Positions 8,630 to 53,312 of a stretch of 64,000 nucleotides of DNA are shown piece by piece. The DNA is taken from assembly GCF_000585395.1 (NCBI RefSeq), contig NZ_KK073875.1:2480017-2544016 (forward strand), written 5' to 3'. The notes below the pieces were generated by a model. It did not search any database, was not told the origin of the DNA, and saw only the letters and a list, made by a program, of their open reading frames with translations. Every line of letters starts with the position of its first letter. Position 1 is the first letter of the stretch. Made by a program: the position numbers and the translations under genes. The stretch is from Saccharibacillus sacchari DSM 19268. Its GTDB lineage: Bacteria > Bacillota > Bacilli > Paenibacillales > Paenibacillaceae.

Positions 8630-8826
8630 CCTGAGGAAAAGGCTCTGCGGCTGCGGGGAAGTTCCGTTACGATCGCTGTTTCCCTCGGGAAGAAGGATTG
8701 GATTTTAAAGTGGAATCTTCCCGAGGTCAAAGGCGATACATAGCATATGCTTCCGAAGTGCATTTCTTCGAAATGCTTCAGCTTCTTCACTGGAACTTCC
8801 CCTGCGCCTTCGGCCTTTTCTTCAGG
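8630..8826 (-). repeat. Palindromic intergenic repeat, family 1, copy A
   Basis: A ~197-nt imperfect palindrome between dnaN and yaaA. The outer arms start CCTGAGGAAAAGGC (8630) and end GCCTTTTCTTCAGG with GGAACTTCCCC just inside (8792-8826). The inner stem is CCTCGGGAAG (8683-8692) with CTTCCCGAGG (8717-8726). Family linkers are in reverse orientation: TCAAAGGCGATA after the inner stem (reverse complement TATCGCCTTTGA) and ACGATCGCTGTT before it. This copy carries an extra small hairpin (GCATTTCTTCGAAATGC, 8759-8775). It lies inside an operon and so would be transcribed. Confidence 0.8.
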
Positions 8827-8849
8827 ACTGGGTATCTGTATTTTAGAGA

Positions 8850-9992
8850 TCAGTTCGTCGTGCGGTAAGGCAGGATGATGTAGAGGCTGTTGCTCTCGTC
8901 GGTCGGTTCGATGATGATCGGGCTCATGACGCCGGTGAAGCGGATTGTCAGCTGTTCGCTTTCGATGACTTTTAGGACGTCGAGCATGTATTTGGAGTTG
9001 AATGACAGGCGAAGTTGTTCGCCTTCGAATTCGGCTAACTGAATTTCTTCTTGCACGCGGCCCAGTTCGGTCGAGCTGGACGAGATTTCGATGCCGCCTT
9101 GTTCCAACGTCTGCATGCGAACGATGTTCGTTTTTTCTTCGCGGGACAACAGGTAGGCGCGGTCGATCGACTCGCTCAGGTTTTTGGTGTCGAGCAGAAG
9201 TCTTGTTTTGTGGCTCGACGGAATGATTTTCGACGTGTCCGGGTACAGGCCGTCCAGGATGCGCGAGTAGAACAAGACGCGATCGACTTTGAACAGGACC
9301 TGGTTGTCGGCTACGACGATATCGACCAAAGTGTTTTGATCCGGAATGATTTTGCTCAGTTCGTTCAGCGTTTTGCCGGAAATGACGATGTTGTTGAACT
9401 CGAGCTCTTCTGCGCCTTCGAGTCGAACGGTACGCGTCGCCAGGCGGTGACGGTCGGTTGCGACGAATTTGAGCTGTCCTTCTTTCAAACTCCACATCAC
9501 GCCGGTCAGAATCGGAGTCGTCTCCTGGGTCGAAATGGAGAACACCGTTTGGCGGATCATATGACGCAGCAGATCGCCGGGTACGGAAAGCACGCGGTTT
9601 TCTTCAATGCTCGGCAGTACCGGGAATTCTTCAGGATCCAAACCTACGAGCTGAATATCGGTTGCGCCCGCACGGATAAAGGTCTGAAACCCGCTCCCTA
9701 CTTCCATCTCGATTTCCGAGGTTGGAAGTTTTTTGATGATTTCCACGAAAAACTTGGCCGGAAGCACGACGCTGCCCACTTTTTCTACGGTCACAACGGT
9801 TTTATTGCCTTCTTCTGCCGGAATGAAGGATTGGATCGAAATGTCCGTATCGCTCGCTGTTAACGTTACGCCGTGATAGGCCACGTCGAATTTGATCCCG
9901 CCGAGAATCGGAATCGTGGTTCGGCTGGAAATGGCTTTGGACACATGTTGAATAGCTTCGCTGAGGTGGGATTTGGAAATGCTGATTTTCAT
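8850..9992 (-). CDS. dnaN: DNA polymerase III sliding clamp (beta subunit)
   Basis: A 380-residue ring-forming clamp that tethers the replicative polymerase. It has the usual three-domain layout and N-terminus MKISISKSHLSEAIQHVSKAI; the C-terminal hydrophobic pocket region reads VMSPIIIEP followed by the terminal YIILPYRTTN. The start at 9992 is preceded by AGGAG. An in-frame extension further upstream runs through the origin unwinding region and is not credible. It follows dnaA. Confidence 0.98.
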   Translation of the reverse strand: MKISISKSHLSEAIQHVSKAISSRTTIPILGGIKFDVAYHGVTLTASDTDISIQSFIPAEEGNKTVVTVEKVGSVVLPAKFFVEIIKKLPTSEIEMEVGSGFQTFIRAGATDIQLVGLDPEEFPVLPSIEENRVLSVPGDLLRHMIRQTVFSISTQETTPILTGVMWSLKEGQLKFVATDRHRLATRTVRLEGAEELEFNNIVISGKTLNELSKIIPDQNTLVDIVVADNQVLFKVDRVLFYSRILDGLYPDTSKIIPSSHKTRLLLDTKNLSESIDRAYLLSREEKTNIVRMQTLEQGGIEISSSSTELGRVQEEIQLAEFEGEQLRLSFNSKYMLDVLKVIESEQLTIRFTGVMSPIIIEPTDESNSLYIILPYRTTN

Positions 9993-10005
9993 CTCGTCAC
10001 TCCTG

Positions 10006-10071
10006 TAATAGATAATATATTCTTTAAGATCTTTATAGTAAAAGTAGTAGGGGCACTGAATATGTGGATAA
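10006..10071 (+). promoter_or_regulatory. oriC: oriC unwinding region: AT-rich tract, DnaA-trio-like triplets, DnaA box
   Basis: Reading right to left, a perfect DnaA box (minus-strand TTATCCACA, 10063-10071) is followed by a short GC-rich step (GGGGC, 10050-10054) and then triplets that read 3'-GAT GAT GAA AAT GAT on the plus strand (10035-10050). Beyond them is an AT-only stretch (10006-10034). This order of box, GC step, trios and AT-rich DNA is that of the basal unwinding element described for B. subtilis. Function is inferred from the match. Confidence 0.65.
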
Positions 10072-10103
10072 ACTGAGAAAAGACCCGAAAAACATAACAA
10101 ACT

Positions 10104-10138
10104 AAGCCTATCCACATGTGTATAAGTTGTGCATAGGC
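10104..10138. promoter_or_regulatory. Hairpin carrying DnaA boxes after dnaA
   Basis: A 13-nt inverted repeat with one mismatch (AAGCCTATCCACA / TGTGCATAGGCTT) encloses a short loop. Three DnaA-box-like 9-mers fall within it: CTATCCACA (10108-10116), TTATACACA on the minus strand (10117-10125) and CTATGCACA on the minus strand (10128-10136). It lies 12 nt past the dnaA stop and may act as both origin element and partial terminator. Confidence 0.6.
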
Positions 10139-10149
10139 TTTTTGTTTAT

Positions 10150-11505
10150 TCAGGAAGGATTTTTTATTTTCTCAGTCAGGCTGTGGACAACTTTCGAGAG
10201 TTCTTGGTCCACTTTCAACGAGTGCGTGATCTTTTCATGCGCGTGAATGACCGTCGTATGGTCGCGTCCGCCGAATGCTTCGCCGATCTTGGGCAGCGAG
10301 TAGTCGGTCAGTTCGCGAGAGAGATACATGGCGACTTGGCGCGGGAAAGCAATGGCTTTCGTCCGTTTTCTCGCTTTAAAATCTTCCATTTTCAAATTAT
10401 AGTACTCGCCGACCCGCTGCTGGATGTCCTGGATCGTGATGATCCGCGGCCGGCTGGACGGAATAATGTCCTTCAGCGCTTCGGCTGCCAGATGGGCGGT
10501 CACGTCCTGATTGGTCAACGACGAATAAGCCACAACGCGAATCAGCGCGCCTTCAAGCTCGCGAATGTTGGTATCGATCTGATTCGCAATGTACATCATC
10601 GCTTCATTCGGCACGTCAAGCTTCTCCGCACGTGCTTTTTTCCGCAAAATCGCGATCCGCGTTTCCAAATCCGGCGGCTGGATGTCGGTAATCAATCCCC
10701 ATTCGAACCTCGAACGCAGACGTTCTTCCAGGGTCGGGATCTCCTTCGGAGGCCGGTCGCTGGAAATAATGATCTGTTTGCTCTCCTCATGCAGCGCATT
10801 GAACGTATGGAAGAACTCTTCTTGCGTCGACTCTTTTCCCGCAATGAACTGAATATCGTCGATCAGCAGAATATCGATATTGCGATACTTATTCCGGAAG
10901 CTTTCGCCGCGGTTGTCGCGGATCGAGTTGATGAACTCGTTCGTAAACTTCTCCGAAGAGATATAAACGACGCGGCTGCTCGGATTATGCTGCAAAATGT
11001 AGTGGCCGATCGCGTGCATCAAGTGTGTTTTTCCGAGCCCTACTCCCCCGTACAGAAACAAAGGGTTGTAGGCTTTTGCCGGCGCCTCGGCGACGGCGAG
11101 CGATGCCGCATGCGCGAAACGGTTACCCGAGCCGATGACGAACGTGTCGAACGTGTATTTGGGATTGAGCATATTGGCGTTCGCTTCGACGTTAACTTGA
11201 ACCGGAGCAGGCGGCGGAGTCGATTGTTTTTGAAGCGACTCTTCTTCGTGTCCGGGTTCTTCAATGACAAATTTAACCGTGACGCTGCGTCCGAGGACGT
11301 CAAAAGCGACCTGCGCCACCAGTTTGGTATATCGGCTTTCCAACCATTCCACGGCAAAAGTCGTCGGCGCCGATACGGTCAGCGCTCCGTTGGTGAGGTG
11401 AATGACCTGTGTGGCTTTGAACCAGGTATCGAAGCTGGGTTTGCTCAGCTTCGTTTGGATGATCGATAGAATTTGTTGCCACAATTGAGCGGTATGGCTG
11501 TCCAC
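10150..11505 (-). CDS. dnaA: Chromosomal replication initiator protein DnaA
   Basis: A 451-residue AAA+ initiator. Domain I occupies residues 1 to ~85 and a variable linker ([12 protein letters not shown]) follows. The AAA+ core has Walker [16 protein letters not shown] and Walker [15 protein letters not shown]. The C-terminal DNA-binding domain has the signature [15 protein letters not shown]. DnaA boxes lie on both sides of the gene, as in B. subtilis, so autoregulation is likely. The start is a GTG-free ATG preceded by AGGAG. Confidence 0.98.
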
Positions 11506-11716
11506 AAACTGTCACTCCTTTAAAAATCGTACGATGTGGCTTGAGCCGGAGCGTCCGCCGAGAGTTTTCGGGATTGCAGGTTGTCTTCAAACGACTCATT
11601 CGAATCTGATTCTTCACTTCCGCCGCCGCGCCCACTCAGGCCGGAAGCCGATCAAGAAGCGGAGCTCGCGAAACGAGGAGCGTAACGAAGACGAAACCCA
11701 GGGAAGCCGAGAGAGG

Positions 11717-12090
11717 TTATCCCCACGATCCATAATTATGGGAACAAAAAAAGAAGGATAAACAGGACTTGTTCACAACGTTATCCACAGACTGTTGATA
11801 ATATAGAGGCTAAAACCGAATATTCACACCGAAAAGTAATCTAATCATAGCAAAAGAAGCCGTTCATTTCAACGGTTCATGCTATTTTATCCACAAAACC
11901 AATACCTTGTGCATAAAACATATCCACACCACTAGATATTGTTCATAACGTGTTTAAAATTGACCTGTGAATAAAATAGCTCTCCAAAAATATACACAGG
12001 CCAAAAGGCAATACGGTGGAAAAGTGGGTTACGCAAAAACGTGTCTTTCGCAAGGTTGCCAGGTTGGGTGAAAAACGAGACTGTGGATAA
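11717..12090. promoter_or_regulatory. oriC: DnaA-box cluster upstream of dnaA
   Basis: Perfect TTATCCACA on the plus strand at 11781 and 11887 and on the minus strand at 12082. Minus-strand sites matching TTATNCACA lie at 11908 and 11966. Sites with one mismatch lie at 11717, 11820, 11920 and 11990. This density is typical of the dnaA-upstream half of a bipartite Bacillus-type origin. Confidence 0.85.
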
Positions 12091-12420
12091 CCTTGAGAAC
12101 ATCCAAAACCCGAATTCGAATCCCCGATTGCGAAAAACCCGAAGTTCGAGAGGGTGAAGGTCGAGGTGAAGGATCGAAAAAAGGACAACGCCGAAAAAGA
12201 GGGAGCAACGAATAATCACGATTTTCAAAAAGGGGAAGAGGAAGCAAATCATTCGGGCCCGCGAATAGGCCGAGCCGTTCTTGGATCGCCAGCGAATGTA
12301 TTCCGGCGCTGGCCGGCAATCGAGCGCAGTCCAGCGCGATCCGGCAGACTTCATTTGTTTAAAAGGCCGGAACGGCGCCATTTCCAGCCGGTTCAAACCA
12401 AGTTAGCAATACGAGGAATA

Positions 12421-12449
12421 TTGCTTGCGAAATTGCCTTTCCTTATATA
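12421..12449 (+). promoter_or_regulatory. rpmH upstream promoter candidate
   Basis: TTGCTT (12421-12426) and TATATA (12444-12449) separated by 17 nt. Confidence 0.45.
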
Positions 12450-12508
12450 TAAGCATTCCAAGCCTGTTTTTTTCGTTAAAAAAGAGGGAGGATTACGAAG
12501 AAGTTTAC

Positions 12509-12537
12509 TTGACTTTGCTGGAAACGCATGATTAAAT
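12509..12537 (+). promoter_or_regulatory. rpmH promoter
   Basis: TTGACT (12509-12514) and TTAAAT (12532-12537) are 17 nt apart, giving a start near 12545 and a ~95-nt leader for rpmH. Confidence 0.6.
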
Positions 12538-12639
12538 GATAAAAGGCATGTTCTGCGAGAAGAAGAACGAATGTGTGTAATTATATTGGTTTAGCATATT
12601 GCAAAACCTGTACTACCCGTAAAAGGAGGTGCTATTGTA

Positions 12640-12774
12640 ATGGGTCCTACTTTCAAACCTAACACCCGCAAGCGCAAAAAGGTGCACGGATTCCGTAAAA
12701 GAATGAGCACGAAAAACGGCCGCAAGGTGCTGGCTGCTCGTCGTCTCAAAGGCAGAAAAGTGCTGAGCGCGTAA
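12640..12774 (+). CDS. rpmH: 50S ribosomal protein L34
   Basis: A 44-residue, very basic protein with the L34 pattern ([20 protein letters not shown]). The N-terminus MGPTFKPN is of the Firmicute type. AAAAGGAGGT lies eight bases before the ATG. rpmH opens the conserved rpmH-rnpA-yidC-jag-mnmE series diverging from dnaA. Confidence 0.97.
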
Positions 12775-12791
12775 GCTTGGGCACATGAGCG

Positions 12792-12818
12792 AAGACCACC
12801 TGGAGGTGGTCTTTTTTC
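12792..12818 (+). terminator. Terminator or attenuator between rpmH and rnpA
   Basis: GACCACCT and AGGTGGTC form an 8-bp stem (12794-12811) followed by TTTTTT. It would make most transcripts end after rpmH, matching the much larger need for L34 than for RNase P protein. Confidence 0.85.
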
Positions 12819-12842
12819 TTAATAAAGGGGACGCGAGAAAAG

Positions 12843-13220
12843 GTGCAAAAAAAGCTACGATTACGGAACCGTGCCGAGTTTACCCGCGTATACCGTCACG
12901 GCAAGTCTTTCGCGAACCGGCAGCTGGTCCTGTATTGGTTTCACAAACGGGATGTCGATCAGTTTCGCATGGGCGTGTCGGTCAGTAAAAAGGTAGGCAA
13001 TGCGGTTGTCCGCAACCGGATACGCCGTTTAATGAAGGAAATCGTTAGGCATCATGCCGACGAAATCGCGGATCATGTCGATCTCGTGTTCATTATTCGA
13101 AAAGGCGCAGTCGACATGGATTACAAGGAGTTGGAGAAGAGCGTGCTGCACGTGCTTCGCAAATCCTTATTGCTCAAGCGTAAAGGTCGGCAAGACCGGC
13201 CGGGGGAGACCTCGAAGTGA
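12843..13220 (+). CDS. rnpA: Ribonuclease P protein component
   Basis: A 125-residue basic protein that assists RNase P RNA in 5' tRNA processing. The signature RNR motif is present in VSKKVGNAVVRNRIRRLMKE, and the N-terminus is KKLRLRNRAEFTRVYRHGKS. The start is GTG at 12843. The basic C-terminal tail (KRKGRQDRPGETSK) is not part of the conserved core. No yidD is found in the 129-nt gap to yidC. Confidence 0.95.
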   Translation: MQKKLRLRNRAEFTRVYRHGKSFANRQLVLYWFHKRDVDQFRMGVSVSKKVGNAVVRNRIRRLMKEIVRHHADEIADHVDLVFIIRKGAVDMDYKELEKSVLHVLRKSLLLKRKGRQDRPGETSK

Positions 13221-13349
13221 AGCGCTTTTTTGCGTTTCAAATGAAGGGCTAATTATGGTATGATTTTCACAACTGCAAGCGGTTTGCCCGATGCGGGAGG
13301 AAGTCCTGCGGGAGTGCAGGTACATGAAGGTTAAGAGAGGGGTTATCTA

Positions 13350-14237
13350 GTGTCTCATTTGTTCAAACGCAGAGGCAAGTGGGTGATGGTTATCGCCGCT
13401 GTTCTGCTGATTGCCGTCCTTGCGGGCTGTACGCCGGCCACAACGCTGCATACGACGGAAGACTTGAAAAACAGCGGCAGCTTCTGGCAGAGTAACGTCG
13501 TCTACTGGTTTGCGCTGGCGCTTGATTCGTTCGCGGAATGGTTCGGCGGCGAATACGGCCTGGCCGTCCTGCTGCTCGTACTCATCGTGCGTACGCTGAT
13601 CCTGCCACTGACAATCAAATCCGTCAAGAGCTCGAAAGCCATGCAGGCGATCCAACCGGAAATGCAGAAGCTGAGAGAACAATTCAAGGACGATCCGCAA
13701 CGCATGCAGCAGGAGCAAATGCGCCTGTTCCAAGAGAACAAGGTGAATCCGGCCGCAGGCTGTCTGCCTTTGATTATTCAGATGCCGATCTTTATCGCGC
13801 TGTATAATGCGATCATTTATAACAGTGACTTGGCGCAACATTCCTTCCTCTGGATGGAACTTGGCAAACCAGACATTCCGTTGACGTTGTTTGCGGCAGC
13901 TACGACGTTCTTGCAAACCTGGTTGATGATGCGTCAAAACCCGGCGCAACAACAAGGACCGATGAAGTTCATGTTGTTCGTTTATCCGGTACTGATCTTC
14001 TTCATGGGTTATCAATTCCCGTCCGCCCTCCCGCTCTACTGGGCAATGAGTAACGTATACACGATCGTGCAAAACTTCTTCCTGTACCGCAACAAAGATT
14101 CGAAAGCAGCAGCGGTTATCGCTCAACAAGGCGGAGCAAAGCCTGCTGGCAAAACTAGCACTTCCGGCGGCGGCGTAAGCTTGTCCAAAGGCGCGGGCCC
14201 GGTATCGAGCCGCAAAAAGAAAAAGAAAAAACGTTAA
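13350..14237 (+). CDS. yidC: Membrane protein insertase YidC/OxaA/SpoIIIJ family
   Basis: A 295-residue lipoprotein insertase that places membrane proteins in the bilayer alone or with SecYEG. A basic N-terminus and hydrophobic stretch end in the lipobox LAGC with Cys27. Transmembrane segments follow near YGLAVLLLVLIVRTLILPL, PLIIQMPIFIALYNAI, and the pair around residues 175-235. The C-terminus is rich in lysine (SSRKKKKKKR), as in YidC2-type proteins that contact ribosomes. The start is GTG behind GAGAGGGG. It is followed by jag, its usual partner. Confidence 0.95.
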   Translation: MSHLFKRRGKWVMVIAAVLLIAVLAGCTPATTLHTTEDLKNSGSFWQSNVVYWFALALDSFAEWFGGEYGLAVLLLVLIVRTLILPLTIKSVKSSKAMQAIQPEMQKLREQFKDDPQRMQQEQMRLFQENKVNPAAGCLPLIIQMPIFIALYNAIIYNSDLAQHSFLWMELGKPDIPLTLFAAATTFLQTWLMMRQNPAQQQGPMKFMLFVYPVLIFFMGYQFPSALPLYWAMSNVYTIVQNFFLYRNKDSKAAAVIAQQGGAKPAGKTSTSGGGVSLSKGAGPVSSRKKKKKKR

Positions 14238-14313
14238 GTTTACAAAGATCGAAGATAGCTGAATAACGAGCGTGTGCAAAAGACGAAGCGTAACATGAGG
14301 GGGCGCGGATTCG

Positions 14314-15171
14314 ATGACGAGCAAAGTGACGGCTGTAGGAAAAACGGTAGATGAAGCCATCTCGCTGGGACTTGGGCAGCTTGGCGTAACGAGGGATCAG
14401 GTTGAAGTGAATGTGCTGGAGCACCCTTCAAAAAAATTCCTTGGTTTGTTCGGTGGGCGCAATGCCAAAGTCGAGCTGTCATTGGTTCGTTCTGGCCGTG
14501 TTCCGACAGAGACGGAACCTCAGGTTGCTCCGATTGTCGAAGCCGAGGATAACCGGTCTGCAACTACTCGACTGGAGAGCCCGAATTCTGCGGCACCCGG
14601 TCCCATGAAAGCCGATGCTTCGGCGCCTACGGAATCCACTCCGAGACGCGAGCAGCCTAATCCGGTCGTGATTGCGCCGAATGAAGCCGACTTGTCCTCC
14701 GACGACGCAACAGGCGTTCGCCCGATGGAGCGTTATCATGAGGCGGCCGACTTCATTCGCGAGGTTGCCGGAGCCATGGGGCTCGATGTGGAGGTCGACG
14801 TCCGGAAAAATCGGGACGGCGGTCTGCTGGATATTTCGGGTCCCGAGTTGGGCATGCTGATCGGAAGACGGGGCCAGACGTTGGATGCTCTTCAACTACT
14901 TGCCGGCGTCGTCGCGAATAAAGGGTCCGATAAGTTTGTAAGACTGACGCTGGATGCGGAAAACTTCCGTCGTCGTCGAGCAAAAACGTTGGAAGACCTG
15001 GCTGATCGTTTGGCGGAACGCGTCGTTCGAACCCGTAAGGAAGTCGTGTTGGAACCGATGCCTCCGCAGGAGCGCAAGGTCATTCACGCCCGGTTGCAAA
15101 ACCATCCTGAAGTCGATACGGGAAGCCGTGGCGAAGAACCGAATCGCCGCGTCGTCATCACGCTCAAATAA
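14314..15171 (+). CDS. khpB: RNA-binding protein KhpB/Jag
   Basis: A 285-residue cytosolic protein. The Jag-N domain occupies residues 1-50 (KVTAVGKTVDEAISLGLGQLG), followed by a low-complexity spacer of ~80 residues, a KH domain (LGMLIGRRGQTLDALQLL) and a C-terminal R3H domain (MPPQERKVIHARLQNHPEV). Homologues bind RNA with KhpA and influence cell elongation. The R3H core RxxxH is intact. It is located directly after yidC. Confidence 0.93.
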   Translation: MTSKVTAVGKTVDEAISLGLGQLGVTRDQVEVNVLEHPSKKFLGLFGGRNAKVELSLVRSGRVPTETEPQVAPIVEAEDNRSATTRLESPNSAAPGPMKADASAPTESTPRREQPNPVVIAPNEADLSSDDATGVRPMERYHEAADFIREVAGAMGLDVEVDVRKNRDGGLLDISGPELGMLIGRRGQTLDALQLLAGVVANKGSDKFVRLTLDAENFRRRRAKTLEDLADRLAERVVRTRKEVVLEPMPPQERKVIHARLQNHPEVDTGSRGEEPNRRVVITLK

Positions 15172-15268
15172 CGGCGAGCATTCAGGTGAGCGCCCTCTTT
15201 GCCCATGCGGCGGAGAGGGCCTCTGCCGTTTGCGCGATAAGCCGCACTATTAAATTTGAAATTGAAAG

Positions 15269-15320
15269 AAACGGGGAATCGAAGCTTGCGGTCCATTGAC
15301 CGAAGCCTCCCGTTTTTTCT
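15269..15320 (+). terminator. Terminator after khpB
   Basis: An imperfect stem, with outer ACGGG and CCCGT and inner CGGTC and GACCG arms, followed by TTTTTTC. A second hairpin lies just upstream (GCCCTCT with AGAGGGC, 15188-15222) without a T run. Confidence 0.6.
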
Positions 15321-15368
15321 TGTATATAAGACAGGCAAAAGACAGGCTTGGAAAGAGAGGCATATGGG

Positions 15369-16745
15369 ATGATTAGCGATACAATTGCGGCTATTTCTAC
15401 AGCGGTGGGGGAAGGCGGGATTGCCGTGATCCGCGTCAGCGGGCCGGAAGCAGTCGGCGAAGTAAGCCGATTGTTCCGGGGCGCTACCCCGCTGACGGAA
15501 GTGCCAACGCATACCGTACATTACGGATTCATTATCGATCCGGAAACAAAAGAAAAAATGGAAGAAGTTCTGGTTACGCTCATGCTGGCACCCAAGTCGT
15601 TTACCACAGAGGATGTCGTGGAGATTAGCGCGCACGGCGGCGTCGTATCCGTTCGCCGAATCATGGAGCTGCTGCTCAAGCAGCGTATCCGCCTAGCGGA
15701 ACCGGGCGAGTTCACGAAGCGCGCCTTTTTGAACGGACGCATCGATCTGTCGCAGGCGGAAGGCGTGATCGATTTGATCCGTTCGAAGTCCGACAAAGCT
15801 TTTTCCGTCGCGTTCAAACAGGTCGAAGGCGATCTGTCCCGCCGGATTCAGGAACTGCGGCAGACATTGATCGAGACGTTGGCGCATATTGAGGTGAATA
15901 TCGATTATCCCGAGCATGACGTGGAATCAATGACTTCGCTGTTTATTCAAGAGAAATGCGGCTCGGTGCTGACGGAGATCGAACGCTTGCTCCACACGTC
16001 GAATCAGGGCAAAATCCTGCGCGAAGGCATCACCACCGCCATCGTCGGGCGTCCCAATGTCGGGAAATCTTCGCTGCTCAATGCACTGTCCGGTCAAAAC
16101 CGCGCGATCGTCACCGATATTCCCGGCACGACCCGCGACGTTATCGAGGAATTCATCACCATCAACAATATCCCGCTCAAGCTGCTCGATACCGCCGGTA
16201 TTCGCGAGACGCTGGACGTCGTTGAAAAAATCGGTGTCGAACGTTCCCGTACCGCGCTGAACGAAGCCGATCTGATCCTGCTCGTGCTGAACAACGGCGA
16301 CGAGTTAAACGAAGAAGAACAACAGTTGATGGAACAGATCAGCGGTCGTCAATCGATCGTGATCCTGAACAAAATGGATCTGCCGCAAAAAGTCGAAACG
16401 GAAAAAGTTCGTCAGTTCTACAAAGAAGAGCTGATTGTGCCGATGACCGTTAAAGAGGGAGAAGGCGTCGACCGACTCGAAGAAGCGATCTCTGCTCTAT
16501 TCTTCGCCGGTAAGATCGAAAGCGCCGACCTGACCTATGTATCCAACGTTCGCCATATCGCGCTGCTGCACCAAACGAAGCGCTCGTTAATTGATGCCAT
16601 CGAAGCAGCCGAAATGTTCGTCCCGATCGACATGATCCAGATCGATGTCCGCTTGGCTTGGGAACAACTCGGCGAGATCGTAGGTGACACCGCCCAAGAC
16701 TCGTTGATCGATCAGATTTTCTCGCAGTTCTGTCTGGGCAAGTAA
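15369..16745 (+). CDS. mnmE: tRNA uridine-5-carboxymethylaminomethyl modification GTPase MnmE
   Basis: A 458-residue GTPase that works with MnmG to modify U34 of tRNAs reading split codon boxes. The N-terminal folate-binding domain begins [17 protein letters not shown]; the G domain carries [14 protein letters not shown] (about residue 227), the DIPGTTRD loop, [10 protein letters not shown] and NKMD; the C-terminus ends in the conserved FCLGK with its catalytic-site cysteine. The start at 15369 gives exactly the family length. The gene is normally adjacent to mnmG; here a 335-nt gap with a palindromic repeat separates them. Confidence 0.97.
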
Positions 16746-16792
16746 CGTCGATCGACTATTCTATTCAGCCTCATATCGTCCCTATATAGATG

Positions 16793-16852
16793 AAGCAATT
16801 TTTCAGGACTCCTATCCTGAAGCTTCCCCAATCCTGTTATTGCTTTTAAAAA
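16793..16852 (+). terminator. Possible terminator after mnmE
   Basis: AAGCAAT and ATTGCTT form an outer stem around an inner TTCAGG/CCTGAA hairpin, followed by TTAAAA. The structure is present but the T run is poor. Confidence 0.35.
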
Positions 16853-16921
16853 GCGATGTTCAAACGAACAAAGCAGCCCTTTTCTTTTACAAAAACCAAA
16901 GCGAAGCCATTGAACGACCAA

Positions 16922-17032
16922 GCGCAGTATCCTGAAGAAGCGCAGCGCTCGCCTCTGTTTTCGGAATGCCCCCTTAGCCCTACTTCCAATCAGGCATTCC
17001 GAAAACAGCACGCGATCGTAAGGATACTGCGC
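16922..17032 (+). repeat. Palindromic intergenic repeat, family 1, copy F
   Basis: Outer arms GCGCAGTATCCT (16922-16933) and AGGATACTGCGC (17021-17032) pair perfectly. The inner stem CTGTTTTCGGAATGCC (16955-16970) with GGCATTCCGAAAACAG (16993-17008) is a perfect 16 bp. The 5' linker AAGAAGCGCAGCGCTCGCCT and 3' linker CACGCGATCGTA match the linkers of copies D and E, although both stems are unrelated to theirs. It fills most of the mnmE-mnmG gap (16746-17080). Confidence 0.85.
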
Positions 17033-17080
17033 GACGCGGAGTTCATACCCGGCGACGCCCCCACAATCAGGAGGATCAAC

Positions 17081-41146: not shown

Positions 41147-41189
41147 ACTCTACGGCCTCACGTTGTCCTCGAAAGTTACGTGTGCGGGG

Positions 41190-41322
41190 GAAGCGAGAAG
41201 ACTGCGAGAGAAATTCGTTCAAGACGCTGTCTCACTTGGAAAAGTCGATTGAAATTTTAAGTGGAAGTTTTCCAAGTTCAAAGGCGTATTTCACTGAATT
41301 TCTCTCTCCGTCTTCTCGCTTC
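41190..41322 (-). repeat. Palindromic intergenic repeat, family 1, copy B
   Basis: Outer arms GAAGCGAGAAGAC (41190) and GTCTTCTCGCTTC (41310-41322), extended inward by GAGAGAAATTC and GAATTTCTCTC, pair at about 25 of 27 positions. The inner stem ACTTGGAAAA with TTTTCCAAGT is perfect. Linker TTCAAAGGCGTA is the reverse complement of the family linker TACGCCTTTGAA, so this copy is inverted relative to C-F. It lies downstream of dnaC. Confidence 0.85.
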
Positions 41323-41401
41323 CAGCTACGTTGGACTTTGTCGACACTTTGAAACCATCGATAACCCGGCGGATTCAAAGTGGGGTAGGATAGGAAAAGG
41401 G

Positions 41402-41945: not shown

Positions 41946-42053
41946 GCCTTGTTTAACCTCCAAATTCCAATTTTGAACCTTTTTTTGGAAATGAAAAAAC
42001 TCGCTCTTCTTCTCTTTTCTCCTTCCCGCTATTTAATGCCGAGGAAAACCCCA

Positions 42054-42164
42054 GCGGAGGGAAAGTTCTGTAGAGGAAGCCTTTGAAACCGGGGAAGTCC
42101 TTATCCAATCCAATTCAAATTCCCCGGTTGAGACAGCGCCCGACACAGAACTCTCCCGCAGCGC
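42054..42164 (+). repeat. Palindromic intergenic repeat, family 1, copy C (short form)
   Basis: Outer arms GCGGAGGGAAAGTTCTGT (42054-42071) and ACAGAACTCTCCCGCAGCGC (42145-42164). Inner stem AACCGGGGAA with TTCCCCGGTT is perfect. The 5' linker is shortened to AGAGGAAGCCTTTGA and the 3' linker reads GAGACAGCGCCCGAC. The rest of the 41946-42189 gap shows no gene. Confidence 0.8.
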
Positions 42165-43756: not shown

Positions 43757-43817
43757 AGCGGCAAGACAGGCTGCACGCTTGGATCGTCTTATGAAAAAAG
43801 TTGGTTAGAAACCTCCA

Positions 43818-43842
43818 AACCCGCGCCCGGCGCGGGTTTTTT
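43818..43842 (+). terminator. purA terminator
   Basis: AACCCGCGC and GCGCGGGTT perfect stem with a three-base loop, followed by TTTTTT. Confidence 0.9.
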
Positions 43843-43856
43843 GCTGTTTAGCAAAG

Positions 43857-43886
43857 TTGAACTATCGGCGCCGGCTGTGGTACAGT
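43857..43886 (+). promoter_or_regulatory. Promoter candidate for the M23 endopeptidase gene
   Basis: TTGAAC (43857-43862) and TACAGT (43881-43886) with 18 nt between them, ~100 nt before the start codon. Confidence 0.45.
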
Positions 43887-43985
43887 AGACAAAGGTTTTG
43901 AAAAGGTTAAAATTTTGACACTATTTGAGAGCAATGTTGAAGATGCGCAATAAATCAGTAAGCTTGCCATTTAAAGGAGAAGATC

Positions 43986-45647: not shown

Positions 45648-45820
45648 CGACAAAGGACAAGCAGTAACACGCCGGATGCTAAGTAATCAATGTTGAGAGT
45701 GACTTTAAACCTCATGAGTGAGCGATGAAGAAAGGCCATGATCAACTCGAACGTGTTCAAGCTACTCGTCTTAATCAATTTAACGAAACTGTTCATATCC
45801 CTTGATCTTCTCTTCTTTTT

Positions 45821-45857
45821 AAAAAAAGCGCCGCCGGCATTCTCCGGCGGCGCCTTT
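45821..45857. terminator. Hairpin terminator after the M23 gene
   Basis: GCGCCGCCGG (45828-45837) and CCGGCGGCGC (45844-45853) form a perfect 10-bp stem. The T run is better on the minus strand (seven bases) than on the plus strand (TTTAT), so it may act both ways. The 45648-45820 stretch holds nothing I can support. Confidence 0.7.
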
Positions 45858-45888
45858 ATGTCTTGAATGTGCATTTCCGAAGGCACCA

Positions 45889-46015
45889 GGCGGAGGGAGA
45901 GTTTCAGTGTAGGAGCGCTAGCGTTCGCCTTTGCAGTTGGGAAGCTTCCTTCTAATTCTAATCAAAGCTTCCCAACTGCAACACGCGACCGAAACGAAAC
46001 TCTCCCGGAGCCGCC
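45889..46015 (+). repeat. Palindromic intergenic repeat, family 1, copy D
   Basis: Outer arms GGCGGAGGGAGAGTTTC (45889-45905) and GAAACTCTCCCGGAGCCGCC (45996-46015). Inner stem TTGCAGTTGGGAAGCTT with AAGCTTCCCAACTGCAA is a perfect 17 bp. Linkers TAGGAGCGCTAGCGTTCGCC and CACGCGACCGAAAC are close to those of copy E. It lies between the M23 gene and walR. Confidence 0.88.
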
Positions 46016-46138
46016 CCGCCTTCCCATCAGAAATGTATATTCAAGACGTCCCGCGCCCCCGGAACCTTTTCCGTCGGCGCTTTTTCCCGTCTCCTATGGT
46101 AAAATAACGAAGAATCAAAGCAGGGGGGCTGAAAGAAA

Positions 46139-46882
46139 ATGCAGGGTAAAATCCTGGTTGTCGACGATGAACAGCCGATTGCGGATATATTGAAATTCAA
46201 TCTCGAAAAAGAAGGCTACCAAGTCACCTGCGCGTTCGACGGCATTACCGCCGTCGAACTTGCGCTGAGCGAGCAGCCCGACCTGATCCTGCTGGATCTG
46301 ATGCTGCCGGGCAAAGACGGCATGGACGTGTGCCGCGAAGTCCGCGCCAAATTGGCCGTGCCGATCATCATGCTCACCGCCAAAGACGGCGAGATCGACA
46401 AAGTGCTCGGTCTTGAGCTGGGCGCGGACGATTACGTCACCAAGCCGTTCAGCACGCGCGAACTGCTGGCCCGGGTCAAAGCCCAGATGCGCAGGCACCA
46501 GCCGGGCGCGCCGTTGTACGCGGGGGCAGGCGGCCCGAGCATGGGGGCGGAAGCGCCGAAGCGTCAAGGACTGACGGTAGATGCTCTTTTTATCGATACG
46601 GATATGTATATGGTGTACAAGAACGGCGAGCAGCTTGATCTGACTCACCGCGAATATGAACTCGTTTACTACATGGCCAAGAATTCGGGCAAAGTCATGA
46701 CGCGCGAGCACCTGCTGCAAGCGGTCTGGGGCTTCGAATATTTCGGCGACGTGCGCACGGTCGACGTGACCATTCGGCGGCTGCGCGAAAAGATCGAAGA
46801 CGATCCGAGCAAACCGGAATATATCCTGACCCGGCGCGGACTCGGTTACATGATGCGTTCCAACAAGCCGGGAGGATTTTAA
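46139..46882 (+). CDS. walR: Response regulator WalR (YycF)
   Basis: A 247-residue OmpR-family regulator essential in many Firmicutes; it controls cell-wall hydrolase genes. The receiver domain has the acidic pair DDE, phospho-acceptor Asp53 in LLDLMLPG, and the TKPFS lysine. The winged-helix domain ends [27 protein letters not shown]. The interdomain linker ([19 protein letters not shown]) is Gly/Ala-rich and longer than usual. The stop is three bases before walK. Confidence 0.97.
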
Positions 46883-46885
46883 CGG

Positions 46886-48748
46886 ATGCTGCGCGGCGCT
46901 TCCTTTTTCCGTTCGGTCCAAGCCAAGCTGATTATCGTGTACATGCTGCTGATCGTGATCGCGATGCAGCTGATCGGCGTTTATTTCGTGAGTGCGATGA
47001 AGACGTCCCTGACGAACAACTTCACCAACGATCTCAAAGAACAAGCGGAGCTTTTATCCGTGCTGGCCGGGCAAAACTGGTCGGGCAGCGGAGAAGCCGC
47101 CGAAGACAAAGCGGCAAGCCTGCGCACGCTGGTCGACAACTTTTCCAGCATGAGCAGCGGCGAGATTCAAGTGCTCGACGTGAGCGGCCGGGTGCTGATT
47201 ACGTCGCTGTCCACGCATGCCGACCTGGTCAACAGCAAAAACACGCAGACCGTCGTCAGCCGCGCGCTGCAAGGGATCGACGATAACGAAGAGTATATTA
47301 TCGACGAAGACAATCTGCGCAAAAAGGTCGTCGCCAAACCCGTGTTCAGCGGCGGAAAAATCGTGGGCGCGATCTATATCGTGGCCTCGATGCAAAGTCT
47401 CTACGATACAATGCAGCGGATCAACAGCATCTTTATCTCCGGCGTGCTGATCGCGCTCGGCCTGACGGCCGTACTCGGCGTCATCTTGGCGCATACGGTC
47501 ACGCAGCCGATCAAAGAAATGACCAAGCGGGCGACGGCGGTCGCGGAAGGTCGTTTCCACGTGCGAATGCCCGTGTTCGGCAACGACGAGATCGGACAGC
47601 TCGGCGAAGCGTTCAACCATATGACGAGCCGTTTGCAAGGCGTATTATCGCTGAATGAAGAAGAAAAAGAAAAGCTGGCTTCGATCCTCACCAACATGAG
47701 CGACGGCGTGATCGCGGCGGACGAGTCCGGTTCGGTCATTTTGGTCAACCGGGTTGCCAGCGCCATGCTGGGAATGCGGGAAATGGACATCATCGGGCGA
47801 AGCATCTCGGAGCTGCTGGATCTGCCGGAAGAAGACGAAGAGCTGCCGTCCGCCGGACTGCGCAGCATCATCCTCGGCGGCAGCGGCGGCACTCCGGATT
47901 CGCCCGGCGCTCCCGACGGACTCGGCGAAATGACGATCAAAGCGACGCTCAGCCCGATTCACCGCCGCGAAAGCGGAACGGAAATCGGCGTCAGCGGCAC
48001 GATCGCGGTCTTGCAAGACATCACCGAGCAGGAACGATTGGATACGCTGCGCCGCGAATTCGTGGCGAACGTCTCGCACGAACTGCGCACGCCGCTGACC
48101 ACGATCAAAAGCTACACCGAAGCGCTGGAAGACGGGGCGCTCGACGATCGGGCTTTAGCGGGACGTTTTGTCGGCGTGATTCAAAACGAGACGGAGCGCA
48201 TGATTCGCCTCGTGACCGATCTGCTCCAACTGTCGCGCATGGATTCCCGGGAAACGCTCGTGCGGCGCAAGAAAGCGAACTTGTTCGAGCTGATCGAAGA
48301 AGTCGCCGAACGCTTTACGTTCCCGCTTCGGGACAAAGGGATCTCCGTATCGCTCAAAGCCTCGCCGCAGCTCGGTTCCGTCAACGTAGACCGCGACCAG
48401 ATCGATCAGGTTCTCGACAATGTCGTGTCCAACGCGATGAAGTACACGGCGGACGGAGGCAAAGTCACGCTGGACGCCTACCCGCTAGAAGACGGCAAAC
48501 GGTATGCGGTCGTGATCGCGGATACCGGCATCGGGATTCCGAAGGAAGAGCTGGGACGGATCTTCGAACGTTTTTACCGGGTAGACAAAGCGCGTTCCCG
48601 CGGCATGGGCGGCACGGGCCTCGGCCTGGCGATCGCGCGGGAGATCGTGGAAGCGCACGGCGGGGACATCGCGATCGAATCGGAGCTGGGACAAGGTACG
48701 CGTGTAACGTTCACCTTGCCTGCCCATATCGAAGGAGGCGGGGATTAA
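46886..48748 (+). CDS. walK: Sensor histidine kinase WalK (YycG)
   Basis: A 620-residue kinase: TM1 (residues ~14-34), an extracytoplasmic PAS-like sensor, TM2 (~182-205), HAMP ([19 protein letters not shown]), cytosolic PAS, then the H-box [11 protein letters not shown] with phospho-acceptor His about 398, N-box [10 protein letters not shown], and G-boxes [10 protein letters not shown] and [11 protein letters not shown] Gly/Pro/Ser-rich insert ([15 protein letters not shown]) interrupts the PAS region. Signals are thought to reflect lipid II or wall state. Confidence 0.97.
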
Positions 48749-48749
48749 C

Positions 48750-50048
48750 GTGAAAGAGCAGCTCAAAACGGCGGCACTCACGCTCCTCGTCGCCGTCAGT
48801 CTGGTGCAAAGTTATCTGTTGATCTATCGGCTGCCGGGTACAGGCTCAGTTGTCGTCTCGTCGGCGGGCTATGTCCGAACCGACGAGATGGGCGAGCAGC
48901 TGAACGTGGAAGATACGCTGTATCCGGACCGGATGATTATTCATATGGGCGAGGACAAGCATACGGTTTTTTATCCGAATTCGGCTTTTTACAAGCTGAT
49001 CTATGCACGGATTCAGGCCCGGGATTTCGCCGCTTTTCAAGCCCAACCGATCTCTAGCGAGGATTGGGAAAAAGTAGCGGCGAACAATCCCGGCATCGAG
49101 CTGTCGTTCGGAAGCGGGCTGCCGGTGCCTTTGCTGCAAAAAACGATGCGGCTGGCCGCCGACGCGACATTCGAGACGGCCGACATCGATCGCATCTGGA
49201 TTTATACCGGAGCCGGCGAGGAGAAGCCGAGAGCCTTTTTCTTCAGTTCGAACGGGCAGGATATCTACGAAGCGAAGCAGCTCGACCTGACGGTGCAGGA
49301 CGTGCTTCAGCATGTGGCGTTCGGCGAAGAATGGACCCCGTATACGCCGCTCAAAAACCATGCGTTGTACGTGCCGTCCAAGCCGATCGTGCTGGCGGAA
49401 GCGGTTCTGGAGACGGATGCGTTTACCAGCGACCAAATGCAGCGCAACCTGTTCGCCGATCCGGCCGTGACGCGCAATATCCATGAACAGGACGGTTCGG
49501 AGATTTACACGGACAGCAAGCGGAGCCTTCAGATCGAGGACGAAGGGCGCTGGATGACGTACACCGATCCGGCGGCGGTTCCGGCGATCCGGGCGGACGC
49601 CACCGAAAGCGTGCTATCCGCCGTCGACTTCATCAATCAACACGGAGGCTGGAACGGAACGTACCGGGCTGAACTGACCGCGGGCAGCGACGAAGATTCG
49701 AATGCGGATCTGAGCGTGCGTTTCCGGCAGTATTATGGTTCGTTACCGATCTTCGGCAGCGGGACGGTACGTTACGGGTATATGGATCTGCTGCTCCAGC
49801 AAGGCACGGTCTCGTTCTACGAACGCTCTCTGCTTGAGACGCCGCAAGTGGGCGATCAAGGGCCGCAGTATACGTTGTCCGGCGGTCGGGATCTGATCGA
49901 TCGGATCGTCAAAGTCGAAGAAGTGCATGGTTTGAAAGTGACGGATTTGTACCCGGCGTACACGCCACGCATGAACGGCGATACGCTGCGGCTGGTGCCG
50001 GGCTGGGTAGCGGTGCTGTCCGACGGCACGAACGCGACATTTAACTAA
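48750..50048 (+). CDS. walH: WalRK auxiliary membrane protein WalH (YycH)
   Basis: A 432-residue protein with one N-terminal membrane helix (AALTLLVAVSLVQSYLLIYRL) and a large extracytoplasmic part. YycH and YycI together bind WalK and restrain it in B. subtilis. The start is GTG at 48750, directly after walK. Sequence conservation in this family is low, so synteny carries much of the assignment. Confidence 0.9.
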   Translation: MKEQLKTAALTLLVAVSLVQSYLLIYRLPGTGSVVVSSAGYVRTDEMGEQLNVEDTLYPDRMIIHMGEDKHTVFYPNSAFYKLIYARIQARDFAAFQAQPISSEDWEKVAANNPGIELSFGSGLPVPLLQKTMRLAADATFETADIDRIWIYTGAGEEKPRAFFFSSNGQDIYEAKQLDLTVQDVLQHVAFGEEWTPYTPLKNHALYVPSKPIVLAEAVLETDAFTSDQMQRNLFADPAVTRNIHEQDGSEIYTDSKRSLQIEDEGRWMTYTDPAAVPAIRADATESVLSAVDFINQHGGWNGTYRAELTAGSDEDSNADLSVRFRQYYGSLPIFGSGTVRYGYMDLLLQQGTVSFYERSLLETPQVGDQGPQYTLSGGRDLIDRIVKVEEVHGLKVTDLYPAYTPRMNGDTLRLVPGWVAVLSDGTNATFN

Positions 50049-50085
50049 TCGGTCGTAGCCGGCCGGGCGAGAGGGGAGGCGGAAC

Positions 50086-50823
50086 ATGGATTGGGGAAGG
50101 GCTAAAAATGTCTTGATCTACGCGTTCCTACTGCTGAACCTGGTGCTCGGCTATCAGCTGTGGAGCGATTACCGCGAGCAGCAGGGCGCCAACTTGGGCT
50201 TCGATTCGCTCAGCGAAAGCACGCAGCGGGCGATGGAAAACAAAAATATTCAGGTGCTGACCTCCGTTCCGGCGGATACGCCGAGCCTGCCGAAAATCTC
50301 TTACCGATATACCGAGGAGCTTCCGGACGATCCGGTACAGCTTGCCATTCCGGCGGACAGCAAGCTCATTTTTACGCCCGGAGACCTGGTGTCGGCACTG
50401 AAAAACGAAATCCCGCAGATCGGAAATTATAGCTACGACGCTTTTGCGGACAGCAGCGAAGACGGGTCGTTCACGCTGCATCCGTTATTCGAAGGGCAGT
50501 GGCCGTTGTTTAACGCGGATCTGGAACTTTTTTATACCGACCAGAAGATTACGGCTTACCTCGGTTCCCCGGTACAGATTCAAGATGCCGGAGGCGAAAC
50601 GGAAGTGCTGCCCGCGCAAAAAGCACTCGGGACGCTGGTCGAAAATTATTTGCCGGACGGCTCGGTCGTCAAAGAGATCACGCTGGGCTTTTACGGGCAG
50701 ACCTTCGATTCGGAGACCCAGGTGGCTGCGCCGGTATGGCGGTTTACGGTTGAAAACGGCGATCCGTCTTCGTACAGCGTCTACTACGTGCAGGGAGCCA
50801 GCGGAGACGTCATCAGTCCCTGA
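50086..50823 (+). CDS. walI: WalRK auxiliary membrane protein WalI (YycI)
   Basis: A 245-residue protein with N-terminal membrane helix (NVLIYAFLLLNLVLGYQLW) and the YycI extracytoplasmic fold. It partners with WalH in modulating WalK. GGAGGCGG precedes the ATG. Position three in the walRKHIJ order. Confidence 0.92.
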   Translation: MDWGRAKNVLIYAFLLLNLVLGYQLWSDYREQQGANLGFDSLSESTQRAMENKNIQVLTSVPADTPSLPKISYRYTEELPDDPVQLAIPADSKLIFTPGDLVSALKNEIPQIGNYSYDAFADSSEDGSFTLHPLFEGQWPLFNADLELFYTDQKITAYLGSPVQIQDAGGETEVLPAQKALGTLVENYLPDGSVVKEITLGFYGQTFDSETQVAAPVWRFTVENGDPSSYSVYYVQGASGDVISP

Positions 50824-50855
50824 AGCAGCAAGAGCAGGAGAAAAGGAGATCAACA

Positions 50856-51677
50856 ATGAGTATGGGAATGCGTTTTACCGTGTTGTCGAGCGGATCGACG
50901 GGCAATGCGACCGTGATCGAGCTGGGCGGCACGACGATCTTGGTCGATGCGGGCCTCAGCGCCAGAAGAGTCGAAGAACTGCTGCGCGAACGCGAGGTGT
51001 CGCCGGAGCAACTGAGCGGCATTCTGGTCACGCACGAGCACACGGATCATATCAAAGGCGTCGGCGCGCTCGCGCGCAAGTACAAGATGCCGATCTACGC
51101 GAACGAAAAAACGTGGGAAGGCATGAAAAAGTACGTCGGTCAGATCGAGCCGGAGCAGCGCAAAATCCTGGAAACGGGATCGGCGATCGACTTCGGTTCG
51201 CTGAGAGCGGAATCGTTCGGCATCTCGCACGACGCGGCGGAGCCGGTCGGCTACACGTTCGACGACGGCATCCACAAGCTGAGCCTGGCGACCGATCTCG
51301 GCTACATGAGCGAAAAGGTCAAAGAAGCGATCTACGATTCCGACGTGCTGGTGCTCGAATCCAACCACGATATCGAGATGCTGCGCATGGGACGCTACCC
51401 GTGGAACATCAAACGGCGCATCCTCAGCGACATCGGCCATTTATCCAACAACGCGGCGGGCGAAGCGCTCAGCGAGCTGTTGAACGGCCGTTTGAAGCGC
51501 ACGTACCTGGCCCACCTCAGCCGCGACCATAACATGATGGATATCGCGAAAATGACGGTGCGCTGCTCGATGGAGGATTGCGGAATATTTTTCAAGGATA
51601 GCGAATTCGAACTGCGCGACACGTATTGGAACATGCCCACGCCGTGGGACGAGGTAGGCAGCAAAACGGGCGAATAA
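50856..51677 (+). CDS. walJ: Metallo-beta-lactamase-fold hydrolase WalJ (YycJ)
   Basis: A 273-residue cytosolic MBL-fold protein with metal-binding THEHTDHIKGV, preceded by FTVLSSGSTGNATVIELGG; the remaining ligand regions are FGISHDAAEP and THLS-type AHLSRDHN. Homologues act in DNA repair or nuclease-like roles and link to the Wal locus by synteny. AAAGGAG lies before the ATG. Confidence 0.93.
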   Translation: MSMGMRFTVLSSGSTGNATVIELGGTTILVDAGLSARRVEELLREREVSPEQLSGILVTHEHTDHIKGVGALARKYKMPIYANEKTWEGMKKYVGQIEPEQRKILETGSAIDFGSLRAESFGISHDAAEPVGYTFDDGIHKLSLATDLGYMSEKVKEAIYDSDVLVLESNHDIEMLRMGRYPWNIKRRILSDIGHLSNNAAGEALSELLNGRLKRTYLAHLSRDHNMMDIAKMTVRCSMEDCGIFFKDSEFELRDTYWNMPTPWDEVGSKTGE

Positions 51678-51784
51678 CGATCGGCAGAGCGCTTTGGAAA
51701 AGGCGTCGTTATGCCGATAATCGGTTTAATGGATAGCAGGCAGGAAAAGGGCAAAAAATGCGGCGCATACGGATGGAAGGGTGA

Positions 51785-53020
51785 ATGCACATGGGGCTGT
51801 TTGACGACGAATATTATGGCGGGAGCGGGAAAAGGCGCGGATTCAGCGAACGCAGTCCTCGCCGCGGCCGGAGACGTTCCGGTGGCTACGACGCTAACGG
51901 CCGCCGTTCTGGCGGTACGCGTGCGGTCGCTTTTAGCGCGATTCTCGCTTCGCTGCTTACGGCTCTGCTGCTCAGCGGCCTGTTCGCGGGCTTTGTCCTG
52001 CCGCGGATGAATACGACAGCCATCTCCGCAGGAGCCAATCCTTACGATCGCATCGTTCAGGCCGCCGCCGCCGTCCGGCCTGCGGTCGTCAGCATCGTGA
52101 GCCACCGCACTGCGGGCGACACGTCGCCGGACAGTGCGGCATTAGGTTCAGGCGTAATTTTTCAAAAAGAAGGCGGCAAAGCGTACGTCATCACCAATCA
52201 CCACGTCGTCGCGGGCGCGGAAGAACTGCAAGCCGTGCTGGTCGACGGAACAAGCCTGACCGCGAAGTTGGTCGGCTCCGACGTCATTACCGACGTGGCG
52301 GTTCTGGAGATCAGCAGCGCGAAAGTCGCCGCGATCGCGCAGATCGGCGATTCGGATACGCTGGATCTCGGCGAGACCGTAATCGCGCTCGGCAACCCGC
52401 TCGGTCTCGGCGATACGCTCACCTCCGGGATCGTGAGCTATCCGAAGCGCGTTATGCCCGTATCGCTGAACGAAGACGGCGTCTACGATTGGGAGCAGCA
52501 GGTCATTCAGACCGACGCCGCGATCAACGAAGGCAACAGCGGCGGAGCCCTGGTCGACCTCGACGGCCGGCTGATCGGCATCAACACCATGAAGATCGCC
52601 AGTACCGGCGTCGAAGGCATCGGCTTCGCCATCCCGATCAACCAGGTCATGAACACCGCCGAAGAGCTGCTGACCACCGGCAAAATCAGCCGACCTTATC
52701 TGGGCGTCTACTCCCTCGACCTGAACAACCCTTACGCCCCGATGGACGAGGACCAGGTCGAAGAACTGAAGCTGCCGAAAGAAGTCGAAAAAGGCGTCGT
52801 CGTCCTCGAATCCCTCGGCCCCGCCAAAGACGCCGGCATCCAGCTCAACGACGTGATCGTAGGCTTCGACAACCAATCGATCGACTCCACCCTTATGCTC
52901 CGCAAATACTTGTACGGCTACAAAAAGATCGGCGAAAAAATGACCATCAGCTACTACCGCGACGGCAAAAAACAATCCGCCACCGTGACCCTCGGCGAAC
53001 GCCCGGAAGCGACGCAGTGA
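51785..53020 (+). CDS. htrA: HtrA/DegP-like serine protease
   Basis: A 411-residue membrane-anchored S1C protease at the surface. A basic, Gly/Arg-rich N-terminus (SGKRRGFSERSPRRGRRRSG) precedes one membrane helix (FSAILASLLTALLLSGLFAGFVL). The catalytic triad lies in ITNHHVVAGAEE (His), TDVAVLEI (Asp) and NEGNSGGALVD (Ser, about residue 252). One C-terminal PDZ domain follows (GVVVLESLGPAKDAGIQLNDVI begins its ligand groove). It sits next to walJ as in other Firmicutes. Confidence 0.95.
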   Translation: MHMGLFDDEYYGGSGKRRGFSERSPRRGRRRSGGYDANGRRSGGTRAVAFSAILASLLTALLLSGLFAGFVLPRMNTTAISAGANPYDRIVQAAAAVRPAVVSIVSHRTAGDTSPDSAALGSGVIFQKEGGKAYVITNHHVVAGAEELQAVLVDGTSLTAKLVGSDVITDVAVLEISSAKVAAIAQIGDSDTLDLGETVIALGNPLGLGDTLTSGIVSYPKRVMPVSLNEDGVYDWEQQVIQTDAAINEGNSGGALVDLDGRLIGINTMKIASTGVEGIGFAIPINQVMNTAEELLTTGKISRPYLGVYSLDLNNPYAPMDEDQVEELKLPKEVEKGVVVLESLGPAKDAGIQLNDVIVGFDNQSIDSTLMLRKYLYGYKKIGEKMTISYYRDGKKQSATVTLGERPEATQ

Positions 53021-53185
53021 GCGCTGATGTACAGATGAGCGGCTTTTTGGAAAAAAGATCGATAAACGAGAAATAAATAAACATCGAAGAAGTCTTGATC
53101 GTCAGATAGAAACGTAGTTCTATAATAGAAGCAATGCATTTGCTTTTTTCCTTAACGAAAGATTTTGCAAGAGTAAAGGCTGCAC

Positions 53186-53312
53186 AGCGGCGGGAGAGTT
53201 TCAGCGTAGGAGCGTTAGCGATCGCCTTTGAATTCGGGAAACTTCCATATATAATTCATTCCAGTTTCCCGAGTTCAACACGCGACCGAAGCGAAACTCT
53301 CCCGCCGCCGCT
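53186..53312 (+). repeat. Palindromic intergenic repeat, family 1, copy E
   Basis: Outer arms AGCGGCGGGAGAGTTTC (53186-53202) and GAAACTCTCCCGCCGCCGCT (53293-53312). Inner stem GAATTCGGGAAACT with AGTTTCCCGAGTTC pairs at 13 of 14 with one G-U-type change. Linkers TAGGAGCGTTAGCGATCGCC and CACGCGACCGAAGC. It fills much of the htrA to CxxH/CxxC gap (53021-53350), which has no gene. Confidence 0.88.

Follow-up and report, generated by a model that had tools for sequence, protein, structure and literature searches.

A family of palindromic elements with variable but paired stems is dispersed through the genome of Saccharibacillus sacchari DSM 19268, and six of its copies (A to F) lie in the 64,000-nt stretch analysed here (contig NZ_KK073875.1, positions 2,480,017 to 2,544,016; hereafter the window). 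In Saccharibacillus the family is very probably a mobile element that ends like an insertion sequence (IS) of the IS1182 family, duplicates terminator hairpins and carries a separate, order-wide core, one strand of which most likely folds as a single strand. The ends, the hairpin duplication, the empty sites and a partner IS that shares both these ends and this type of duplication were all observed directly, and dispersal is thereby explained for Saccharibacillus. An IS1182-family transposase very likely moves the element in trans, as the ends and duplications suggest. It would insert the element where the feet of a terminator hairpin meet the flanking DNA and so duplicate the whole hairpin, both neighbouring genes would therefore retain a terminator, and the insertion, presumably almost harmless, could build up between genes. 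Drift of the core stems under maintained pairing, with conserved linkers, would most likely reflect a need for one strand to fold, either as RNA or as single-stranded DNA during copying. The first-pass annotation, made from the letters of the window, had proposed selection on folding or a copying mechanism that regenerates palindromes; its paired stems are confirmed, and the mechanism of dispersal had escaped it.

Young copies in sister species are miniature inverted-repeat transposable elements (MITEs) of about 202 bp with the ends TGTCGAGAAA. They occupy rho-independent terminators, and the terminator hairpin is duplicated on both sides. Among 59 full-length copies, defined as those with both terminal inverted repeats (TIRs) located by a text pattern in the fetched loci, the element measured 202 bp in 31 with boundaries set by script. 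The flanks matched in 51 of the 59, compared with 2 of 1,162 shuffled flank pairs. An exact flank repeat of at least 12 nt was present in 42 copies (20–29 nt in 30 of these), and 28 of the 42 repeats are perfect hairpins after trimming of up to 3 nt per end. All 20 young copies from genomes G002 and G003, which were the top matches and were read by eye, lay between two copies of a hairpin that differed from site to site (G-numbers denote the genus genomes compared unless stated otherwise, G000 being the present genome; L-numbers are locus labels). The comparison with relatives that the first-pass annotation had suggested also yielded empty sites, for example that of copy E in G007, which holds a single terminator hairpin. 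Here, diverged copies of the hairpin stand on both sides of copy E, at 45828–45853 (+) and at 46053–46080 (+), the latter followed by a T-run. Copy E itself spans 45859–46048 (+) with degenerate TIRs at 45859–45869 and 46038–46048 and the core at 45888–46013, and with its flanking hairpins it forms a unit of 45828–46080, wider than first noted.

The partner IS was recovered with a PF13751 search, which found a 1,568-bp element in G000 (two copies), G002 and G003. All four copies (L241, L242, L243 and L246) have this length and the inward ends CAG[AG][AG]TGTCGAGAAAC, the hairpin is duplicated in three of them, and the right end of the MITE has 15 nt in common with the IS end (CAGGCTGTCGAGAAA). 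The transposase matches PF05598 and PF13751 above cut-off, and two open reading frames (ORFs) match the IS1182 model NCBIfam NF033551 in two stretches, ORF2 with 286.5 bits against a cut-off of 270 and ORF1 with 212 bits, below it. No core was found inside the four IS copies by R1, a covariance model of 27 copies; a strong match at L243 (1179–1305) lies outside the IS, and an edge match at the IS of L242 is weak (12.8 bits, E 0.17). Because its interior is not derived from the IS, the young element is MITE-like and carries a core foreign to the IS. By the text pattern used, these ends are missing from the further PF13751 matches of G000 and G010. An A-run stands at the ORF1/ORF2 junction in all four IS copies, and a programmed frameshift at this junction is possible.

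The core, the interior of about 125 nt, combines conserved linkers with strongly covarying stems. The first-pass annotation had stated that the stems change together, and covariation proved to be far above shuffled controls in this genome as well as in a comparison of ten genera. Among 86 distinct copies from this genome, 95.9% of cells were paired (82.7% after shuffling), two-sided changes occupied 423 cells (113 after shuffling; none of 500 shuffles reached as high), and 30 of 36 pairs had changes on both sides (18.8 after shuffling). Pairing fell to at most 57% when partners were slid by 1–3 columns, and the outcome of no covariation, named in advance as refuting, thus failed against both kinds of control. 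Across the ten genera, changes on both sides occurred at 33 of 36 pairs, with a covariation score of 0.749 compared with 0.211 for shuffled alignments; both this alignment and the own-genome one were fitted to the model, and the cross-genus one leans towards structure. The MAFFT cross-genus alignment, fitted to no structure, gave changes on both sides at 30 of 30 predicted pairs; it misplaces copy D, hence the pair counts were redone on the model-fitted alignment. Several unpaired linker columns are almost invariant, with an entropy near 0 bits compared with about 1 bit in many stem columns, and they are kept across genera. Since the linkers hardly vary while the stems vary with pairing kept, the linkers are constrained in sequence and the stems mainly in pairing. 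A known riboswitch or RNA family was rejected as a candidate for the loci tested, since Rfam 15 at its gathering score gave no match on elements in the window and in 14 other-genus loci, in line with the earlier remark that no named family has these linkers, and a permissive search of three loci returned sub-gathering matches, microRNA and small RNA among them, which we take as chance.

The core is far more abundant and widespread than the window indicates. The covariance-model search that had been recommended revealed further copies in this genome and in relatives, contrary to the outcome named as refuting. Model R1 gave at least 150 matches in this genome, all with E 8.4e-11 or better; since 12 of the 87 matches in a second listing, copies B and D included, lie outside those 150, the genome holds at least 162 copies. 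The training set of R1 consisted of 27 rows and included five window copies, so that copy A is the independent match among the six. At E 0.01, R1 matched in 26 of 39 genomes (this one and others of its genus, family and order), with 2 to at least 89 copies per genome within the genus; the low counts of distant species are partly a model artefact (G011 has 11 copies by the cross-genus model R2 and 4 by R1). With R2 at E 1e-6, 159 of the 198 genomes sampled from the order matched, representing 30 of 43 genera, and many of the 159 had at least 17 matches. A separate draw from the phylum contained it in 4 of 149 genomes, all from the element's own family (Paenibacillaceae); order and phylum are those defined by the genome collection searched. 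The ends in other genera differ by eye from those in Saccharibacillus (for example GGTGAAAAA...TTTTTCACC in G019). Thus, because the ends differ and hairpin duplication is missing there, the core is more widespread than its IS1182 ends. A tentative extension, which we rate somewhat below an even chance, is that the core leads an independent existence as an order-wide genomic parasite or module. Folding as a single strand, it would have survived in most of the order's genomes by using different transposable ends from genus to genus, and in Saccharibacillus the IS1182 ends would have brought it terminator targeting and hairpin duplication.

Several observations weigh against this account of an IS1182-ended element with a single-strand-folding core. 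The IS with matching ends occurs in 3 of the 16 genus genomes (G000, G002 and G003), and G015, G007, G013 and G014 are rich in copies yet have no PF13751 match, so that the elements there may be relics or may have been moved by another transposase. Each of the four IS copies is read as two ORFs, which makes the activity of the IS conjectural; one copy, L241, is flanked by two different hairpins. Clear duplication is missing from 8 of the 59 full-length MITE copies (L062, L083, L145, L188, L191, L207, L219 and L238), although two similar hairpins are still visible at L238. Most own-genome copies do not have intact TIRs (exact TGTCGAGAAAGTC occurs 15 times forward and 4 times in reverse genome-wide), and their MITE origin is therefore drawn from the shared core and arms. 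In other genera, direct repeats of 12 nt or more flanked the element at a single one of 43 loci, which is a tandem array, much as in the controls (1 of 422). Regarding the fold, the preference for one strand is not significant in the 167 Saccharibacillus copies when events are counted (G.T versus A.C 29:9 raw, 14:7 per event, p=0.19). All such ratios come from copies picked by models that accept G-U pairs, which makes the bias no more than suggestive. Lastly, the frequency of two-arm changes per pair rises approximately linearly with loop divergence (0.009, 0.025, 0.054, 0.083, 0.089 and 0.105 at 0–5 loop differences).

This last relation also speaks for a purely mutational reading, in which hairpin-templated repair or template switching copies changes from one arm to the other and long palindromes persist for that reason. 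The duplicated terminator hairpins, presumably identical at birth, had already changed in both arms at L172, L180, L193 and L234, and the inner stems of site E in G000 and G015 differ at two pairs that are both still paired, one by a transversion. However, almost invariant unpaired linker columns persisting across genera are not expected from such a process. The closest copies (55 comparisons, 660 stem pairs) differed in one arm 23 times and in both arms 15 times; the pair was kept in 9 of the 15, and all nine are transitions passable through G-U. Differences confined to one arm were also present in duplicated terminators (L154, L211, L240, L213 and L123), and terminators are themselves under selection to pair. 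We therefore regard maintenance by mutation as rather doubtful and lean towards selection on a single strand, perhaps with some templated change. A single-stranded form of one strand, RNA or DNA, is favoured because G.T exceeds A.C on that strand: the ratio was 67:14 in the own genome, where 32 of the 67 came from one column pair, 48:3 in the cross-genus alignment and 19:0 when 41 copies from other genera were counted without an alignment. The same bias in these model-picked copies disfavours a symmetric DNA cruciform as the functional form.

It is unlikely that the core works primarily as a regulatory RNA module near the ends of genes and is kept by the host for that function, with mobility secondary. 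Its genomic layout would suit such a role. All 75 own-genome copies with a readable context, determined with a home-made gene caller, are intergenic (26 convergent, 3 divergent, 45 tandem and 1 with an undefined neighbour), as are all 44 copies from other genera (++ 22, -- 10, +- 9, -+ 2, ?+ 1), one of which overlaps a called gene by 13 nt; divergent contexts are thus rare in both sets. A terminator-like hairpin lies mostly on the 5' side of the 87 own-genome copies (5' only in 26, 3' only in 1, both in 2, neither in 58), and site B is filled in eight genomes, this one included. Copy number, in contrast, varies greatly within the genus by model R1, even if the lowest counts partly depend on the model, and sites are filled or empty according to species. 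Moreover, in own-genome copies with the hairpin on the 5' side, the messenger RNA of the adjacent gene would contain the complement of the G.T-favoured strand. As young copies carry hairpins on both sides, one flanking hairpin, mostly the 3' one, seems to have been lost later from the mobile element. Close pairs of copies less than 700 bp apart were arranged as - then + in 25 of 25 cases in the 56 loci read, pointing apart with their 5' ends facing; among the 150 matches listed, this held for 18 of 18 pairs under 500 bp, and the next pair, at 754 bp, was ++. Such facing pairs often stand around one terminator, for example at L006, L012, L074 and L081.

Very improbable is an element of the repetitive extragenic palindrome (REP) or REPIN type, moved by a REP-associated tyrosine (RAYT, Y1) transposase. 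Such elements are reportedly high in copy number, structured, extragenic and long-persisting, which the present family resembles, and Pseudomonas REPs are said to start with a similar GTAGGAGCG motif at the foot of the hairpin. Their likeness ends at the stems, whose sequences vary here, and at the transposase: TIRs together with duplicated hairpins indicate a DDE enzyme, and in a search confined to the genus, PF01797 matched in 1 of 16 genomes, being absent from the own genome and from 14 of the 15 others. A RAYT/REPIN origin in Saccharibacillus was rejected because PF01797 is absent from the own genome.

The IS1182-ended element resembles IS1272 and TnSha1 most in its targets. As described in the parts of PMC4923244 and PMC5678879 that bear on target choice, these IS1182-family elements use terminator or other hairpins without a sequence consensus. 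According to the same passages, IS1272 deletes or replaces the hairpin without producing a duplication. Here, in contrast, the whole hairpin is duplicated, which matches the alternative route drawn in steps 3b–6b of the model in Fig. 13 of PMC5678879, where the hairpin is duplicated at both ends. The family therefore supplies many natural cases of whole terminator-hairpin duplication, an outcome drawn as a possibility for IS1272, unreported for it in those passages, and one that leaves a hairpin at either side. Bacterial MITEs, as portrayed in the sections of PMC10969869 devoted to them, are likewise short, non-coding, intergenic and foldable, with TIRs and target duplications (7–9 bp repeats in one example). 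The present family differs from them in its order-wide interior with conserved linkers and covarying stems and in its duplication, a terminator hairpin mostly of 20–29 nt. The BOX, RUP and SPRITE repeats of pneumococcus, named in the same source, are intergenic as well and in one case terminator-like. No description of the present elements was found in a literature search limited to top-ranked titles and abstract openings. The MITE kind is already known; new are the duplication of whole hairpins and a covarying core found across the order, and the family seems to be a bacterial repeat of a type that is undescribed yet understandable. The structured repeat exposed in most genomes of the order makes it testable how the interior of a MITE stays conserved over an order. 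Additionally, because duplicated terminators are hairpin pairs presumably identical at birth, selection and mutation in the pairing of palindromes can be tested against each other.

All six window copies were verified at the coordinates first assigned to them, with the strong folding described and with stems that differ yet pair, and all match the covariance model. The orientation of copies A and C was corrected to the minus strand, and the motifs quoted for single copies are present in the window but were partly credited to the wrong ones: TTGCAGTTGGGAAG lies in E and not D, CTGTTTTCGGAATGCC and GCGCAGTATCC belong to B, and TAGGAGCGYTAGCG is absent from D. The sites were compared across the 15 other genus genomes, each site in those where it could be located, and were occupied in some species and empty in others. 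Copy A (8630–8826, -; core match 8648–8809) lies between dnaN and a gene that we take from gene order to be yaaA, other neighbours being assigned by Pfam; at its site, G010 and G014 have no element, G012 has a short one and G002 one with an internal deletion. Copy B (16922–17032, +; match 16915–17039) stands between mnmE and mnmG and represents its own subtype (CGCCTCTG). Copy C belongs to a short-linker subtype and, with degenerate ends at 41163–41176 and 41335–41346, extends over 41163–41346 (-; core 41199–41313). Related copies occupy its site in G015, G013, G008 and G003, with an identical 26-nt hairpin flanking both sides in G008 and G003, and the site is empty in G007 and G012. Copy D (42052–42164, +), of a short subtype, is located between a DUF2512 gene and purA, and its site is also occupied in G015 and G014. 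At the latter (L105), a second copy was seen by eye, flanked by a different terminator hairpin in two diverged copies. Copy F (53185–53310, +) lies downstream of an htrA-like gene, and its site is occupied in G000 and G015 only among the ten genomes where it was located.

The window is part of one complete chromosome of 6,075,237 bp and is probably the oriC region, because it contains dnaN, recF, mnmE, mnmG, a dnaB-like helicase gene, purA and walRK; several of these names are presumed from gene order. A separate hairpin module (GCTTCCGAAGTGCATTTCTTCGAAATGC-like) occurs variably inside same-site copies of sister species. At site A it is present in G000 (8749–8779, inside copy A) and not in G015, and at site F a related one is present in G015 and not in G000; further loci are L101 (562–725), L008, L018, L022, L025, L027 and L031. 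A different MITE-like insert, with the ends GTACCTTGTCAAC...GTTGACAAGGTAC, lies inside copy B of G015 (L086, within 317–547), and by eye it occurs, in full or in part, also at the F site of G003 (L103) and of G013 (L106). Two more perfect palindromes, at 60793–60822 and 62034–62065, have no match to the family model and consist of 14- and 15-bp arms with 2-nt loops.

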